Below, one piece after another: positions 2,990-22,972 of a stretch of 64,000 nt of DNA. Position 1 is the stretch's first letter; every line of letters begins with the position of its first letter. A program made the translations under genes and the position numbers. The notes under the pieces are model-generated. The model ran no database searches and had not been told where the DNA came from. It worked only from the letters and a program-made list of their open reading frames with translations. Origin of the DNA: Oleiharenicola lentus. GTDB lineage: Bacteria > Verrucomicrobiota > Verrucomicrobiia > Opitutales > Opitutaceae. The stretch spans positions 806,001-870,000 of the forward strand of contig NZ_SDHX01000001.1 of the NCBI RefSeq assembly GCF_004118375.1. The letters run 5' to 3'.

Positions 2990-3613
2990 ATGTCCGCCAT
3001 CGACGAAGGCATTGTCCGCGAGTATTTCGAGCAGGCTGGTTTTTTTGTGCGCCAAGCTCGCAAATACACCTTGGGCGCCAAGCGTGGCGTCGGCGAGGAG
3101 GTCATCGACCTGCTGGTCTTCAATCCGGGCTGGCAGCGCGGCTCGCGCAAGCCGGACTTTTTCCTCTTTCCGAACGAGTTGCCCTTCGTGCAGCGCGCGG
3201 TCGTTAGCATCAAGGGCTGGCACGCGGCCGGCCGCTTCACGCCCAGCACGCTGCGCAACCAGCCGGAGATTTTCCGCTTCCTCGAGCAAAACGTGCTGAA
3301 GGAGGCTTCGCGGTTCTTTCCCGAGACCAACGAGGAGACGAAGGAAACGCTCACCAAGATCCTTGTGCTGCCCGGCCTGCCCACGGCCGAGCCTTTCCGC
3401 TCGCAGGCGGTGGCGATGCTCAAGGAGGCCGGCGTGGACGCGGTGATTTCCTTCCGCGCCATGCTGCTCGACCTGATCGAGCGCGTGGAGCTGAACCGCA
3501 ACTACGGCAAGAGCGACACGCTGCAGCTCATCCGCATCCTGAAGAACTACGACCTGCTCGTGGACCCGCAGATGGACCTGCTCCCCACGAAGCGCCCGCG
3601 CGGCAACGACTGA
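2990..3613 (+). CDS. Conserved hypothetical protein, 207 aa
   Basis: Soluble protein of unknown function. It begins MSAIDEGIVREYFEQAGF and contains GVGEEVIDLLVFNPGW, KPDFFLFPNE and VSIKGWHAAGRFTPSTL, then a helical C-terminus (MLLDLIERVELNRNYGK). The pattern EVIDLLV...AVVSIKGWH loosely recalls restriction-like folds with acidic and lysine residues on adjacent strands, but this is only an impression. It has no signal peptide or membrane segment. Its stop overlaps the lpxA start (TGATG), indicating translational coupling inside the aroB-lpxA-pdxA cluster. The ATG at 2990 is used because the longer frame upstream is a shadow of aroB. Confidence 0.8.
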   Translation: MSAIDEGIVREYFEQAGFFVRQARKYTLGAKRGVGEEVIDLLVFNPGWQRGSRKPDFFLFPNELPFVQRAVVSIKGWHAAGRFTPSTLRNQPEIFRFLEQNVLKEASRFFPETNEETKETLTKILVLPGLPTAEPFRSQAVAMLKEAGVDAVISFRAMLLDLIERVELNRNYGKSDTLQLIRILKNYDLLVDPQMDLLPTKRPRGND

Positions 3614-17944: not shown

Positions 17945-18493
17945 TCAGATGAGACCCAGCTTCATCTTCCCTTCTTCGGAGATCATGCTCTGGTTCCAGG
18001 GTGGTTCCCAAGTGATGCGGACGTCGGCGGCGGCGACACCGGGAACGAGGAGGATCTTCGACTTCGCATCCTCGGCGATAACCGGTCCCATGCCGCAACC
18101 GGGGGCAGTGAGGGTCATGGCGACGTCCACCTTGTGGCCGCCGTCGTCCTGCTTGGCGATGTCCATCGAATAGACGAGGCCGAGGTCCACGATGTTCACG
18201 GGGATTTCGGGATCGAAGACCTGGCGGAGCTGGCCCCACACGGCCTCGGGATCGGGCGCGCCGTCGGCGAGCGTGGCGGCATTGACCGTCTGGTCCTTCA
18301 GGGTCTCGCCGATGGCGTCGGCGTCCTTGCCGTCGAGGCGGTAGAGGCCGGTGTCGGTCTGCACTGTGTAGCTGCCGCCGAGGACCTGGTGGATGAACAC
18401 CGAGGTGCCGGCGGAGAGCGTGTGTTTGTCGCCCGAGGGAATCTGCGACGCATGGACGTCGCGGGAGAGGGTGCGTTGGCGGTTGTCGCTCAT
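17945..18493 (-). CDS. sufT: Fe-S cluster assembly protein SufT
   Basis: The 182-residue protein has an N-terminal extension (VHASQIPSGDKHTLSAGTS, FIHQVLGGSYTV) typical of SufT. It then has a MIP18/DUF59 domain with VFDPEIPVNIVDLGLVY, VAMTLTAPGCGMG (the conserved Cys) and VRITWEPPWNQSMISEEGK. It assists maturation of Fe-S proteins, probably in cluster targeting. It is the last gene of the suf operon, 85 bp after sufD; the gap holds an ACCACGAAA palindromic repeat, and a strong terminator follows. Confidence 0.93.
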   Translation of the reverse strand: MSDNRQRTLSRDVHASQIPSGDKHTLSAGTSVFIHQVLGGSYTVQTDTGLYRLDGKDADAIGETLKDQTVNAATLADGAPDPEAVWGQLRQVFDPEIPVNIVDLGLVYSMDIAKQDDGGHKVDVAMTLTAPGCGMGPVIAEDAKSKILLVPGVAAADVRITWEPPWNQSMISEEGKMKLGLI

Positions 18494-18578: not shown

Positions 18579-19868
18579 TCATTCCTTGAACTTCTGGCGG
18601 ATGATTTCGGTGAGGGTGTCGTGGAGGGCCTCGTTCTCGATCTTGCCGAGGACTTCCTCGAAGAAACCGAAGACGAGGAGTTCCTTGGCCTGGGCGGGCT
18701 TGATGCCGCGGGCCTCGAGGTAGAATTCCTGCTCGCGATCCACGCGGGCGCTGGTGGCGCCGTGCGTGCAGCGGACGTCGTTGGCCTGGATCTCGAGGCC
18801 GGGCAGCGAGTGCGCCTCGGCGTCGTCGGAGAGCATCAGGTTGCGGTTCGACTGATAGGCGTCGGTCTTCTGCGCGTCGGGGTCCACCACGATCAGGCCG
18901 GAGAAGATGGTTTTGGCCGTGTCGAGGAGCACGTTCTTGTAGAGCAGGTTCGAGCCGGTGTTGGGCGCCTGGTGGATCTGCAGCGTGCGCTGGTCGAACT
19001 CCTGGGTGCCGTGGGCGACAGTGAGGGCGAGCATCTCCGAATGCGCGCCGGGCGCCTGCAACTGAGAGAAACTCTCGTGCCGCGCCTGACGCGCACCGGC
19101 GTGGAGATTGAGGGAGAGAACCTTCGCGTCGCGGCGGGCGACGGTGGCGTTGAACTGGAACGACAGCGTGTCGCGGCTCCAGTCCTGCATGGCGACGTAG
19201 GTGACCTGTGCGCCGTGGCCGGCGTAGAGATCGTTGCCACCGCAGGCGAAGCCGCCGGCCGTGGAGCTGAAGAAGTCGGCGACGGTGACCTTGGCGTTTT
19301 CCTCCGCGACGACGAGGGTGTGCGGGAAGACCGCCAGACCCTGGCCCTCGGCCTGGTGGAAGACGGCGAGGACGTCGGCGACTTCGACGCCCTTCGCCAC
19401 GTGGACGAAGGCGCCGTCCTCGAGGAAGGCCTCGTGCAGGGCGGCGAATTTGTCGGAGCCGAGCTTCGAGGGCTGCGTGAGGAGGTGGGCCTTCACGAGA
19501 TCGCCGTGCTTGAGCAGGGCGTTCTGCAGAGTCTCGAAGATGACGCCGGCCGGGGCGGCCCCGGTGCGGGCGACCGCGCGGTTGTTGACGAAGGTGAGCG
19601 AGGCCTTGGCGGCGAAGCCCGGCGCAGAGGCGCGAGCAAGCTCGCTGCCCACAGCCGGCGAGAAACCGGCGAGCGTGAGCGCGCCGAAGTTTGAGAAGCG
19701 CCAGCCTTCGTCGGTGCGTTTGGGCATCGGCAGGGCCGCGAAGCGCTCGTAGGCGGCGCGTTTGCGGTCGAGCCACCAGGCGGGCAGGTGCTTCACGCGC
19801 TCAAGGTGAGCGGCGAAGGCTTCGCGGGTGAAGGAACCGACGGGGAAAGTGGGGGAGGAAACGGACAT
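18579..19868 (-). CDS. sufD: Fe-S cluster assembly protein SufD
   Basis: Scaffold partner of SufB in the SufBC2D complex. The 429 residues include WWLDRKRAAYERFAALPMPKRTDEGWRFSN at the N-terminus (the usual R-x-D-E-x-W-R motif), the parallel beta-helix core, and the C-terminal signature CTHGATSARVDREQEFYLEARGI with the conserved His (CTHGA) needed for cluster assembly. ATG at 19868 is chosen over an upstream extension made of repeat DNA. It lies 93 bp after sufB, with a palindromic repeat in the gap. Confidence 0.95.
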   Translation of the reverse strand: MSVSSPTFPVGSFTREAFAAHLERVKHLPAWWLDRKRAAYERFAALPMPKRTDEGWRFSNFGALTLAGFSPAVGSELARASAPGFAAKASLTFVNNRAVARTGAAPAGVIFETLQNALLKHGDLVKAHLLTQPSKLGSDKFAALHEAFLEDGAFVHVAKGVEVADVLAVFHQAEGQGLAVFPHTLVVAEENAKVTVADFFSSTAGGFACGGNDLYAGHGAQVTYVAMQDWSRDTLSFQFNATVARRDAKVLSLNLHAGARQARHESFSQLQAPGAHSEMLALTVAHGTQEFDQRTLQIHQAPNTGSNLLYKNVLLDTAKTIFSGLIVVDPDAQKTDAYQSNRNLMLSDDAEAHSLPGLEIQANDVRCTHGATSARVDREQEFYLEARGIKPAQAKELLVFGFFEEVLGKIENEALHDTLTEIIRQKFKE

Positions 19869-19871
19869 GGG

Positions 19872-19960
19872 AATTACGAATTCAGAATTACGAATTACGA
19901 CCTGCGATTCGGAGGGTTTGAGAAATCGTCCCTCGTAAATCGTAAGTCGCAAATGCGTCG
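19872..19960. repeat. AT-rich intergenic inverted repeat between sufB and sufD
   Basis: The segment has GAATTACGAATTCAGAATT-type sequence and, further on, CCCTCGTAAATCGTAAGTCG, whose reverse complement resembles the first half (AATTACGACCTGCGATT). This is an imperfect hairpin related in style to the repeat at 2889-2988. It is AT-rich compared with both suf genes. Confidence 0.5.
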
Positions 19961-19961
19961 G

Positions 19962-21404
19962 TCAGCCGACGCTGCCCTCCATCTCGAGGTCGATGAGCCG
20001 TTTCAGCTCCACCGAGTATTCCATCGGGAACTGGCGGGCGAGGTCGTTGATGAAGCCGTTCACGGCGAGACTCATGGCCTGGGCCTCGGTGAGACCGCGC
20101 TGCTGCATGTAGAAGATCATGTCCTCGGAAACCTTGGACACGCTCGCCTCGTGCTGCGTGGCGTTCTTGTCGCCGCGCACGGTGATGGCGGGATAGGTGT
20201 CGGTGCGGCTGTTCGTGTTGATCAGCAGCGCGTCGCACTCGGTGTTGTTCTTGCAGCCCTTGAGGTGCTTCGGGATGTGGACCTGGCCGCGGTAGGTGGC
20301 GCGGCCCTGGCCGACGGAGATGGACTTCGAGACGACGACGGACGTGGTGTCGTCGGCCGCGTGGATCATCTTGGCGCCGGTGTCCTGGTGCTGGCCGTCG
20401 TTGGCGAGGGCGATGGAGATGACCTCGCCGCGGGCCTTGCGGCCCTTCAGGACGACGCCCGGATACTTCATGGTGAGGCGCGAGCCGATGTTGCAGTCGA
20501 TCCACTTCACCTCGGCTTCCTCGTGGGCGACGGCGCGCTTGGTCACGAGGTTGAACACGTTGTTGGCCCAGTTCTGGACGGTGATGTATTGGATCTTCGC
20601 GCCCTTGAGCGCGACGAGCTCGACCACGGCGCTGTGGAGCGTCGAGGTGCTGAACTTAGGGGCGGTGCAGCCCTCCATGTAAACCACCTCGGCACCCTCG
20701 TCGGCGATGATGAGGGTGCGCTCGAACTGGCCGAAGTTCTCCGCGTTGATGCGGAAGTAGGCCTGGAGCGGCTGCGCGACCTTCACGCCCGGGGGCACGT
20801 AGATGAACGAGCCGCCGGAGAACACGGCGCTGTTGAGCGCGGAGAACTTGTTGTCGCCGGTCGGGATGACCTTGCCGAAGAACTTGCGGAAGATCTCCGG
20901 GTGCTCGCGGAGGCCCTCGGTCGAATTCATGAAGATCACACCCTGCTTGGCGACGATGTCCTTGATGTTCGAGTAGGCGGCCTCGGAGTCGAACTGGGCC
21001 TCGACGCCGGCGAGGAACTTGCGCTCCTGCTCGGGGATGCCGAGGCGTTCGAAGGTCTCCTTGATGTCGTCGGGCACCTCGTCCCACGTGCGTTTCGGCT
21101 TCTGGCCGCTGGCGAGGTAGTAGCGGATCTTGTCGAAATTGATGTTCTCGAGATCCTTCGTCGCCCAGTGCGTGGGCATGGGTTTCGAGAGGAAGGTCTT
21201 CAGCGCATTGAGGCGGAACTCGAGGAGCCAGGGCTCCTCCTTCTTCACCCGGCTGATGTAGCGGATCGTGTCCTCGGTGAGACCGGTGCCGGCGTCGAAC
21301 TCGTAGTTCACGTCGTATTTGAAGTCACCCTTGGTCTGGTCGATCCCGGCGACGGGATTCTCGACCTCGGCTGCGGTGGCCTCGATTTCGGTGGGCGGTT
21401 TCAT
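19962..21404 (-). CDS. sufB: Fe-S cluster assembly protein SufB
   Basis: Core scaffold of the Suf machinery. It has 480 residues, the usual length. It contains [40 protein letters not shown], the long beta-helix with [42 protein letters not shown], and [18 protein letters not shown] with the conserved C and E/N residues near [16 protein letters not shown]. It is translated after sufC in the order regulator-sufC-sufB-sufD-sufT; no sufS or sufE/U is present here. Confidence 0.97.
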
Positions 21405-21451: not shown

Positions 21452-21535
21452 TGTCATCCTGAACGAAGCGAAGGATCCAGAACGATGATCGGTGGCGGTT
21501 GTGCTGCTGGATGCTTCGCTGCGCTCAGAATGACA
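21452..21535. repeat. Dispersed inverted repeat TGTCATCCTGAACGAAG, copy 2
   Basis: The left arm TGTCATCCTGAACGAAGCGA and right arm TTCGCTGCGCTCAGAATGACA pair around GGATCC/TGGATG. It occupies the sufC-sufB gap and belongs to the same family as 16009-16090. Confidence 0.82.
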
Positions 21536-21556: not shown

Positions 21557-22315
21557 TCAGGCGGTGGCGGGTTGCTTGACCCAGTCGTAGCCCTTGGCCT
21601 CGAGCTCGAGGGCGAGGGACTTGTCGCCGCTCTTCACGATGCGGCCGTCGTGCATCACGTGCACGAAGTCCGGCACGATGTAGTCGAGCAGGCGCTGGTA
21701 GTGCGTGATGAGCAGGATGCCGGGTGCGCTGGCGCCGGCGCGCTGGGCGTTGACGCCTTCGGCGACGATGCGGAGCGCGTCGATGTCGAGGCCGGAGTCG
21801 GTCTCGTCCATCAGGGCGACCTTCGGCTCGAGCATGGCCATCTGCAGGATCTCGCAGCGCTTCTTTTCGCCGCCGGAGAAACCCTCGTTGACCGAGCGGG
21901 AGGTGAACTTGCGGTCGATCTTGAGCAGGTCCATCTTTGAGTAGAGGCGCTTGTAGTAACCGGTGGCGTCGAGTTCCTCGCCCTCGGCCATGCGGGCCTG
22001 GACGGCGGCGCGCAGAAAGTTGGCGATCGAAACGCCGGGGATCTCGCTCGGATACTGGAACGCGAGGAACAGGCCGGCGCGGGCGCGCTCGTCGGGTTCC
22101 ATTCCGAGCACGGACACGCCGTCGAGCAGCACGTCGCCGCCCGTGATGGTGTAGTCCGGGTGGCCGGCGATGGCCTTGGCGAGGGTGCTCTTGCCGGTGC
22201 CGTTGGGCCCCATGATGGCGTGCACTTCGCCGCGCTTGATCGTCAGGGTGAAGCCCTTGACGATGGGCTTGTCGCCGATGCTGATGTGGAGGTCTTTGAT
22301 CTCGAGTTGGCTCAT
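21557..22315 (-). CDS. sufC: Fe-S cluster assembly ATPase SufC
   Basis: ABC-type ATPase that drives SufB-SufD rearrangement. The 252 residues contain Walker [10 protein letters not shown] at 36-44, the family form [12 protein letters not shown] as signature, Walker [13 protein letters not shown] and the switch His in [13 protein letters not shown]. It has no membrane partner, as expected for SufC. It is 148 bp downstream of the Fur/Irr-like gene, with a repeat copy in between. Confidence 0.97.
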
Positions 22316-22364
22316 GTGAGGAAGGGAAGAGTGAAAGTGAGAGGGGAAAGTGATCTCAGAAGCG

Positions 22365-22451
22365 TGTCATCCTGAACGGAGTGAAGGATCCAAGGGAATG
22401 GGCGGTGGCGGTGGGTGGTGCGACTGGATGCTTCGTGCGGCTCAGCATGAC
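22365..22451. repeat. Dispersed inverted repeat TGTCATCCTGAACGGAG, copy 3
   Basis: The left arm TGTCATCCTGAACGGAGTGA and right arm CTTCGTGCGGCTCAGCATGAC are degenerate reverse complements. It fills the regulator-sufC gap and is the most diverged of the four copies. Confidence 0.75.
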
Positions 22452-22463
22452 GGTGGCGGTGGA

Positions 22464-22898
22464 TTAATTCCGGGCGGAGGGCGTGGCCTTGCCGCGGAAA
22501 ACGATTTCGACGGAGTCGGCCGCGTAGCCGGGCGGGAGGATGGACTTGATCTTGGCGAGCACGCTCTCGGGCAGATCGATGTCGTGTGTCGCGCCGGTGC
22601 TCACGTCGTGAAAATGCGCGTGCGGATGCAGATTTGGGCAGTAGCGGGTGGGGCCGCGCTCGAAATTCACGGAGCGCACGAGGCCGCACGACACCAGCGT
22701 CTCAAGGCAGTTATAGACCGTGGCGAGCGAGATGCTGGGCATCGTGGCCTTCACGCGGGCGAAGACCTCGTCGGCGGTGGGGTGGTCGCGCTTCTCCAGG
22801 ATGCTCTTCAGCACGACTTCGCGCTGCGGGGTGGGGCGGACGTCACAAGCCTTGAGTTGCTCGGAGAGGACAGCGTGGTTGTCGGAATGGGCGGACAT
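22464..22898 (-). CDS. Fur-family transcriptional regulator, Irr-like (no CxxC zinc site)
   Basis: The 144-residue winged-helix regulator has RPTPQREVVLKSILEKRDHPTADEVF and the recognition helix region SISLATVYNCLETLV (56-70). The dimerisation domain has CPNLHPHAHFHDV with C87, H91, H93, H95 and H97. The two CxxC structural zinc motifs of Fur/PerR are absent; instead TGATHDID follows. This resembles Irr, which also lacks CxxC and has a histidine cluster. It is the first gene of the suf operon and a perfect palindrome lies 50 bp upstream, so it probably autoregulates and controls suf. ATG at 22898 is preferred to an upstream in-frame start at 22928. Confidence 0.9.
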   Translation of the reverse strand: MSAHSDNHAVLSEQLKACDVRPTPQREVVLKSILEKRDHPTADEVFARVKATMPSISLATVYNCLETLVSCGLVRSVNFERGPTRYCPNLHPHAHFHDVSTGATHDIDLPESVLAKIKSILPPGYAADSVEIVFRGKATPSARN

Positions 22899-22947
22899 GA
22901 GGGAGGTGGGTCGGAAAACCCAACTCATCTGCGACCCGGTTTCAAGT

Positions 22948-22972
22948 AGTAATTAGAATTATTCTAATTACT
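22948..22972. promoter_or_regulatory. Perfect 25-bp palindromic operator upstream of the suf operon (ICE/PerR-box-like)
   Basis: Two 12-bp arms (AGTAATTAGAAT and its exact reverse complement) flank a single T. The central ATTAGAATTATTCTAAT closely resembles the Irr iron control element TTTAGAA-N3-TTCTAAA and is also near PerR/Fur 7-1-7 boxes. It lies between the VanY gene end (23003) and the regulator start (22898) in an AT-rich island. No U-tract follows, so it is not a terminator. Confidence 0.8.

Follow-up and report, generated by a model that had tools for sequence, protein, structure and literature searches.

Which regulator controls the genes for iron-sulphur (Fe-S) cluster assembly in Verrucomicrobia, and what does it sense? 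The question is raised by a stretch of 64,000 nt of Oleiharenicola lentus (contig NZ_SDHX01000001.1, assembly GCF_004118375.1), here called the window at its full length, in which a Fur-family gene heads the minus-strand gene order regulator-sufC-sufB-sufD-sufT. The initial annotation, made from the letters of the window, had described the gene as an Irr-like regulator preceded by a palindrome resembling the iron control element (ICE) of Irr. The reading that we consider moderately probable as a whole is a dedicated SUF repressor of the Fur family, encoded in the operon itself, which would sense iron or Fe-S clusters at a cysteine-containing site. Autogenous control of suf, judged from the operon and the operator, is very probable.

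Operator and operon in the window

The putative operator is a perfect 25-bp palindrome, AGTAATTAGAAT-T-ATTCTAATTACT (12 + 1 + 12, zero mismatches), located 49 bp ahead of the regulator start codon (Table 1). Both the palindrome, initially placed about 50 bp upstream, and the gene order annotated at the same time were borne out, the latter by Pfam matches and by its retention in relatives. The palindrome core TTAGAATTATTCTAA had a single exact site in the window. When up to three mismatches were allowed, two matches were found, with 0.13 expected, and none of 100 shuffles had two. In the 4.7-Mb genome, the core was the sole site with 0-1 mismatch, and two more sites had 2 mismatches. A -35-like hexamer, TTGAAA, adjoins the operator. 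The palindrome was also considered as a terminator, and this was rejected because the scan of the region gave no terminator-like site.

Homologous loci

Loci L007-L116 were taken from same-genus to same-order genomes and from 80 named records, with titles reading Opitutaceae, Opitutus, Opitutae, Lacunisphaera and similar, or Verrucomicrobia alone. The named records were the best 80 matches of a contig scan, all with Verrucomicrobia-type titles; 16 of 112 plasmid places were read. The phylum search gave matches with E <=1e-15 in 227 of 387 genomes, and loci L117-L226, which are part of all matches, were taken from these. For the final count, 220 loci were treated alike and identical protein cores were collapsed, leaving 187: 160 distinct suf-type homologues and 27 weaker matches (L200-L226). 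The suf-type homologues comprised 101 family-level loci (a group into which the 80 named records were counted), 26 order-level loci and 33 class-level loci. Family, order and class are kinship labels of the search tool, and Opitutaceae and Opitutales were inferred from the named relatives. The weaker matches came mostly from the phylum, with L205, L206 and L219 from the order and L226 as the second gene of a class-level genome.

Conservation of the operon and the operator

A same-strand sufC followed the regulator gene in 158 of the 160 distinct homologues (100/101 family-, 26/26 order- and 32/33 class-level). The two without it were L029, which ends at a contig end, and L183, where none was found within about 5 kb. 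No suf linkage was seen among the 27 weaker matches, where the only ABC match (L211, 28%) was on the opposite strand. At L177, the regulator is separated from sufC by a sufB-like gene, and in some loci insertions lie between sufC and sufB. Among the 38 nearest genomes, 34 had a strong regulator match (7e-19 or better), the G037 copy being split by a stop, and no strong match was found in G008, G029, G030 and G036, which measure 0.9-2.0 Mb and include two genomes of 80% completeness. In G004 (L265/L011) and G016 (L266/L015), a second contig each carried a second regulator match with a box, which may represent strain mixture in the assembly.

The operator was scored as the match to TTRGAAYNRTTCYAA (15 positions) within 150 bp upstream. 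Boxes with at least 14/15 matching positions were present at 99/101 family-, 23/26 order- and 7/33 class-level loci; with at least 13/15, the counts were 99/101, 26/26 and 21/33. Dinucleotide shuffles reached at least 14/15 in 0.03-0.08% and at least 13/15 in 0.75-1.4% of cases, and of the 27 non-suf Fur-family upstream regions none reached 14/15 and one reached 13/15. Most homologous suf promoters carry the box, in keeping with the initial annotation. At the family level, TTG was found at +22 from the box start in 93 of 101 promoters, and two boxes were present in 67 of 101, spaced exactly 29 bp apart in 64. In 13 class-level promoters, the right half of the box merges into TTG (TTCTTG). Boxes flanking the -35-like element would fit repression.

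Boxes elsewhere in the genomes

Exact TTRGAANNNTTCYAA sites numbered 60 in the 38 genomes. By hand tally, 31 of them adjoined the regulator gene (26 genomes) and 29 were elsewhere, versus 22 for the reversed control pattern, which is no clear excess. Seven of the 29 extra boxes (G031, G012, G016, G028, G032, G025 and G000) were read by eye, and no common target or peroxide-defence gene was found at them; a wider regulon was rejected. The many iron-uptake targets of a global Fur were likewise not found, given the one 0-1-mismatch site in the own genome and the 29 versus 22 sites in the 38 genomes. As a single case, the exact box in G031 (L256, box at 3001, G031:C60) is upstream of a gene for a metal-transporting P-type ATPase, recognized by eye from its SPC motif; the ATPase could be an exporter that this regulator controls as well.

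Sensor site

The 160 suf-type proteins had H39, C87, H95 and D106 without exception, and H93 was His in 158. Position 64 was Cys in 157 proteins, and position 71 was Cys in 115 and His in 20. Pro88, which follows C87, was present in 147 and replaced in 13 with the Cys kept. The structural zinc CxxC (columns 98 and 101) was kept in 10/160, and the window protein has D/T there. In the AlphaFold2 model, the conserved cysteines are at Fur site 2 and in the helix of residues 58-70.

In a comparison of 84 rows, column 87 was Cys in 32/32 suf rows and Asp in 27/27 non-suf rows of the phylum. The named reference rows had Asp or Glu, with Asp in all six Irr rows and Glu in E. coli Fur, and the two own-genome paralogues had Glu and Arg. 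The regulatory-site Asp of PerR is D85, which we take to correspond to column 87 here; in place of this Asp, all 160 suf-type proteins have Cys, and the first CxxC of the structural Zn(Cys)4 site is retained in the 10 proteins mentioned above. H93-A-H95 forms an HxH motif in the window protein, and most Fur and PerR rows have HxH as well. Judged from the alignments, suf-type members have Cys where the regulatory site of Fur and PerR has its acidic ligand. That C87 is invariant and C64 nearly so, and that the relatives compared lack C87, suggests a selected function. In E. coli Fur, site 2 consists of His-33, Glu-81, His-88 and His-90 (one of PMC7762939 and PMC10318462).

Family placement

The regulator matched PF01475 with 77 bits (cut-off 23.1) and has a Fur fold in the AlphaFold2 model (mean pLDDT 82). 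The top fold match was the Leptospira peroxide regulator 5nl9 (Z 16.9, 1.9 Å over 137 residues), and Fur 4rb1 gave Z 15.9. In NCBIfam, none of the cut-offs was reached (bits/cut-off: PerRB 81/250, PerR 74/180, IrrA 72/150, Fur 63/220, PerRA 63/200, Irr 62/170), and eight equivalog families matched all 40 members scanned. In a tree of 139 columns, the suf rows formed one clade (99/91) and the six Irr rows, including the S. meliloti one annotated merely as repressor, another (99/89), with an unresolved backbone. A joint suf+Irr clade was not rejected (p-AU 0.395). By these comparisons, the regulator belongs to the Fur superfamily and forms a separate group there with the other suf-type proteins; neither 'Irr' nor 'PerR' is an apt label for it.

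The protein was not firmly placed inside PerR/Fur, which agrees with the initial annotation. Its Irr-like label did not hold: the Irr and IrrA cut-offs were missed, the scores were below those of PerRB and PerR, and the clades were separate. We rejected Irr as the identity on the grounds of the cut-offs, the Asp of the Irr rows at column 87 and the Irr clade; a distant-sister relation was not rejected. The argument from the ICE stood as far as the letters are ICE-like and failed as a diagnosis of Irr. A predicted Riemerella Fur box, ATTTAGAATTATTCTAAAT (PMC5609570), and a PerR consensus, TTATAATnATTATAA in a 7-1-7 frame (PMC11631912), have the same shape, so the operator letters are not Irr-specific. 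Within the open-licence literature, the box letters were found in the Riemerella paper alone. Read in this way, the putative box is a sign of the Fur superfamily and not of Irr. A link between Irr and suf, as the initial annotation had it, is favoured by a Rhodobacter sphaeroides irr mutant, in which some suf genes rise (PMC3413700).

Proposed mechanism and alternatives

In the mechanism that we favour, a dimer of the regulator would bind the TTAGAATNATTCTAA palindrome, next to the -35 region or overlapping it. It would repress its own gene and sufC-sufB-sufD-sufT as long as the supply of iron and Fe-S clusters suffices; loss of the cofactor, by iron starvation or oxidative damage, would release the operon. 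Repression, the direction of the response and the nature of the ligand are what we infer here. At the position of Fur site 2, H39, C87, H93 and H95, with D106 nearby, would probably hold iron or an Fe-S cluster as the cofactor; C64 may contribute to this site, as may C71 in those proteins that have it. That the regulatory metal site, rebuilt with Cys (C87, C64 and often C71 or His), holds an Fe-S cluster is a tentative idea, doubtful as it stands. If it does, the protein would be a further, independently evolved Fe-S sensor of its own assembly operon beside IscR and SufR, found in Verrucomicrobia from the family through the order to the class level.

The conserved site could also belong to a plain Fe(II)/Mn(II) Fur that simply tolerates Cys as a replacement ligand and senses in the ordinary way. 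The fold, the usual His ligands and Asp106 are all kept, and Fur and PerR regulate suf elsewhere. Such tolerance is at odds with an invariant C87 and a near-invariant C64 in the suf type, C87 being absent from the relatives compared, and we regard this explanation as somewhat unlikely. It has the operon and the operator in common with the mechanism favoured above, so that the probabilities of the two overlap and do not sum to one. If the regulator were instead a PerR-type peroxide sensor over suf, peroxide would oxidize the site Fe(II), with His or Cys oxidation, and release suf for cluster repair. The highest NCBIfam scores and the best fold match are of this type, H39, H93, H95 and D106 are kept, and Streptococcus mutans PerR represses sufCDSUB (PMC11631912). 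Every PerR cut-off was nevertheless missed, the column-87 Asp is Cys, CxxC is rare, and no peroxide-defence gene was seen by eye at the seven extra boxes read; we consider a peroxide sensor unlikely.

Very unlikely, in our judgement, is an Irr-like haem sensor, the apo-form of which would bind the ICE-like box and be released by haem, with Cys-Pro (C87-P88) and HxH as the ligands. Pro88 is replaced in 13 of 160 proteins with the Cys kept, HxH is common in Fur and PerR, and the box is not Irr-specific; the six Irr rows, in their own clade, have Asp at column 87, and the Irr cut-offs were missed. On the other side are the palindrome itself, the HxH motif, Pro88 in the 147 remaining proteins, the IrrA score, the joint clade that was not rejected and the rise of suf genes in the R. 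sphaeroides irr mutant.

Several observations weigh against the dedicated, cysteine-based SUF repressor. C64 is replaced in three proteins and C71 is variable, so not all suf-type proteins can have a site of three Cys. The class-level box is weak, with 12 of 33 loci below 13/15, and four class-level loci of one genus reached 11/15 with a common GAATTGTTC core. A promoter scan gave no sigma-70 consensus promoter at the operator, for which reason TTGAAA is treated as a putative -35 element. At L183 (G223), which encodes a regulator of the Cys type, the next 5 kb or so downstream contain no suf genes; it is the sole unlinked case beyond the contig-end cut. The genome has two Rrf2 proteins, neither beside suf; one, with four cysteines (L286, G000:C2:31640-32047), is possibly an Fe-S sensor and could act on suf. 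When the three Cys columns were masked, a quick tree placed a PDB fragment of Leptospira PerRA, which has a long branch, among the suf rows. With the same masked data, a tree holding suf as a clade had a higher likelihood, so a single origin is not contradicted, nor is it independently strong.

Other features of the locus and the genome

The features of the locus are listed in Table 1. For the regulator, an in-frame ATG is also present upstream at 22928, and the alignment of relatives begins at about 22898. The gap between the regulator and sufC is outside the regulatory proposal and is much shorter in the close relative L037. A dispersed repeat of the TCATCCTGARCGRAGTGAAGGATCC type has copies in this gap and between sufC and sufB (21454-21478); it was found at 141 genome places with at most three mismatches, and the reversed control at none.

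Table 1. Positions of the regulator, the suf genes and the putative control elements in the window.
Feature	Position	Strand	Evidence
Palindrome of 25 bp, putative operator; core TTAGAATTATTCTAA at 22953-22967	22948..22972		Sequence; conserved upstream of homologues
TTGAAA, -35-like hexamer, putative role	22940..22945	-	Position-specific count; TTG at the same offset in 93/101 family-level promoters
Fur-family regulator gene, 144 aa	22464..22898	-	PF01475 (E 1.7e-21); alignments; H39, C64, C71, C87, H93, H95, D106
Regulator-sufC gap, 148 bp, with repeat copy at 22367-22391	22316..22463		Genome repeat search
sufC, ABC ATPase	21557..22315	-	PF00005 (ABC_tran); same-strand neighbour in 158/160 distinct homologues
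sufB	19962..21404	-	PF01458 (SUFBD_core); sole SufB found in own genome
sufD, exact start uncertain	18579..19952	-	PF01458 (stretch searched 18579-19874)
sufT-like gene (FeS_assembly_P)	17945..18493	-	PF01883

SUF was the sole Fe-S assembly system found in the genome, with one SufB besides SufD and one NifU_N/SufU-type gene. The second match of the SufB search was at the place of sufD (23% identity), and there was no other match. The NifU_N/SufU-type gene (L288, G000:C1:940663-941016) has no exact box and is about 110 kb away from sufC-sufB-sufD, next to a gene that, by eye, encodes a cysteine desulfurase. The SUF system thus seems split between two loci, with a sufS-sufU-like pair apart from sufC-sufB-sufD. 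Two further Fur-family genes of the genome (L002 and L003) are unlike the suf type, and one of them is next to a gene that, by eye, resembles superoxide dismutase genes.

Comparison with known systems

IscR is a repressor tied to an Fe-S assembly operon, and SufR and IscR belong to protein families other than Fur. The suf regulator, which is encoded in the assembly operon with a conserved putative operator, may be of their functional type and would be a functional analogue at most. SufR represses suf and its own gene (PMC11631912).

With alphaproteobacterial Irr and IrrA, the suf regulator shares the Fur superfamily, the lack of the zinc CxxC in the compared rows, HxH and a box with the TTAGAANNNTTCTAA letters, which are the ICE letters as given in the initial annotation. 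It differs in its scores under the NCBIfam cut-offs, its separate clade and its Cys in place of the Irr Asp at column 87. According to a review (one of PMC7762939 and PMC10318462), Irr and Fur regulate many genes and Irr is a global regulator, unlike the suf regulator with no clear box excess beyond its own promoter. The likeness to PerR (Bacillus, Leptospira PerRA/PerRB, S. mutans) extends to the highest family scores, the fold, the His ligands and Asp106, and ends at the regulatory Asp, which is Cys in the suf regulator, and at the mostly lost CxxC. In S. mutans, PerR (SMU.593), the repressor of suf, is the only Fur-family protein and has other targets too (PMC11631912). That a protein of the Fur fold can hold a cluster is known from E. 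coli Fur, whose [2Fe-2S] cluster turns on DNA binding (one of PMC7762939 and PMC10318462), but columns 98 and 101 are both Cys in only 10 of the 160 suf-type proteins.

Suf is also listed among the Fur-regulated genes in a review (one of PMC7762939 and PMC10318462), and this together with S. mutans PerR lowers the novelty of the locus. As regards the 'distinct solution' to Fe-S homeostasis proposed in the initial annotation, a Fur-family repressor of suf as such thus has precedents. In the open-licence literature, at the level of titles and abstract starts, no report of a Fur-family regulator of suf in Verrucomicrobia was found, and our comparisons suggest a dedicated, possibly undescribed way of sensing iron or Fe-S supply in many Verrucomicrobia. 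If the favoured mechanism is true, the Fur fold has been adapted to the local and autogenous control of Fe-S cluster assembly, and a one-residue swap of an acidic ligand for Cys separates the suf-type members from the relatives compared. The locus would then be a testable system for how the metal sites of the Fur family change sensing, and a handle on Fe-S homeostasis in Verrucomicrobia. Three features are new in comparison with the known systems: a Fur protein that is encoded in the operon and apparently has one promoter as its target, operators that occur in pairs, and Cys in place of the acidic ligand.
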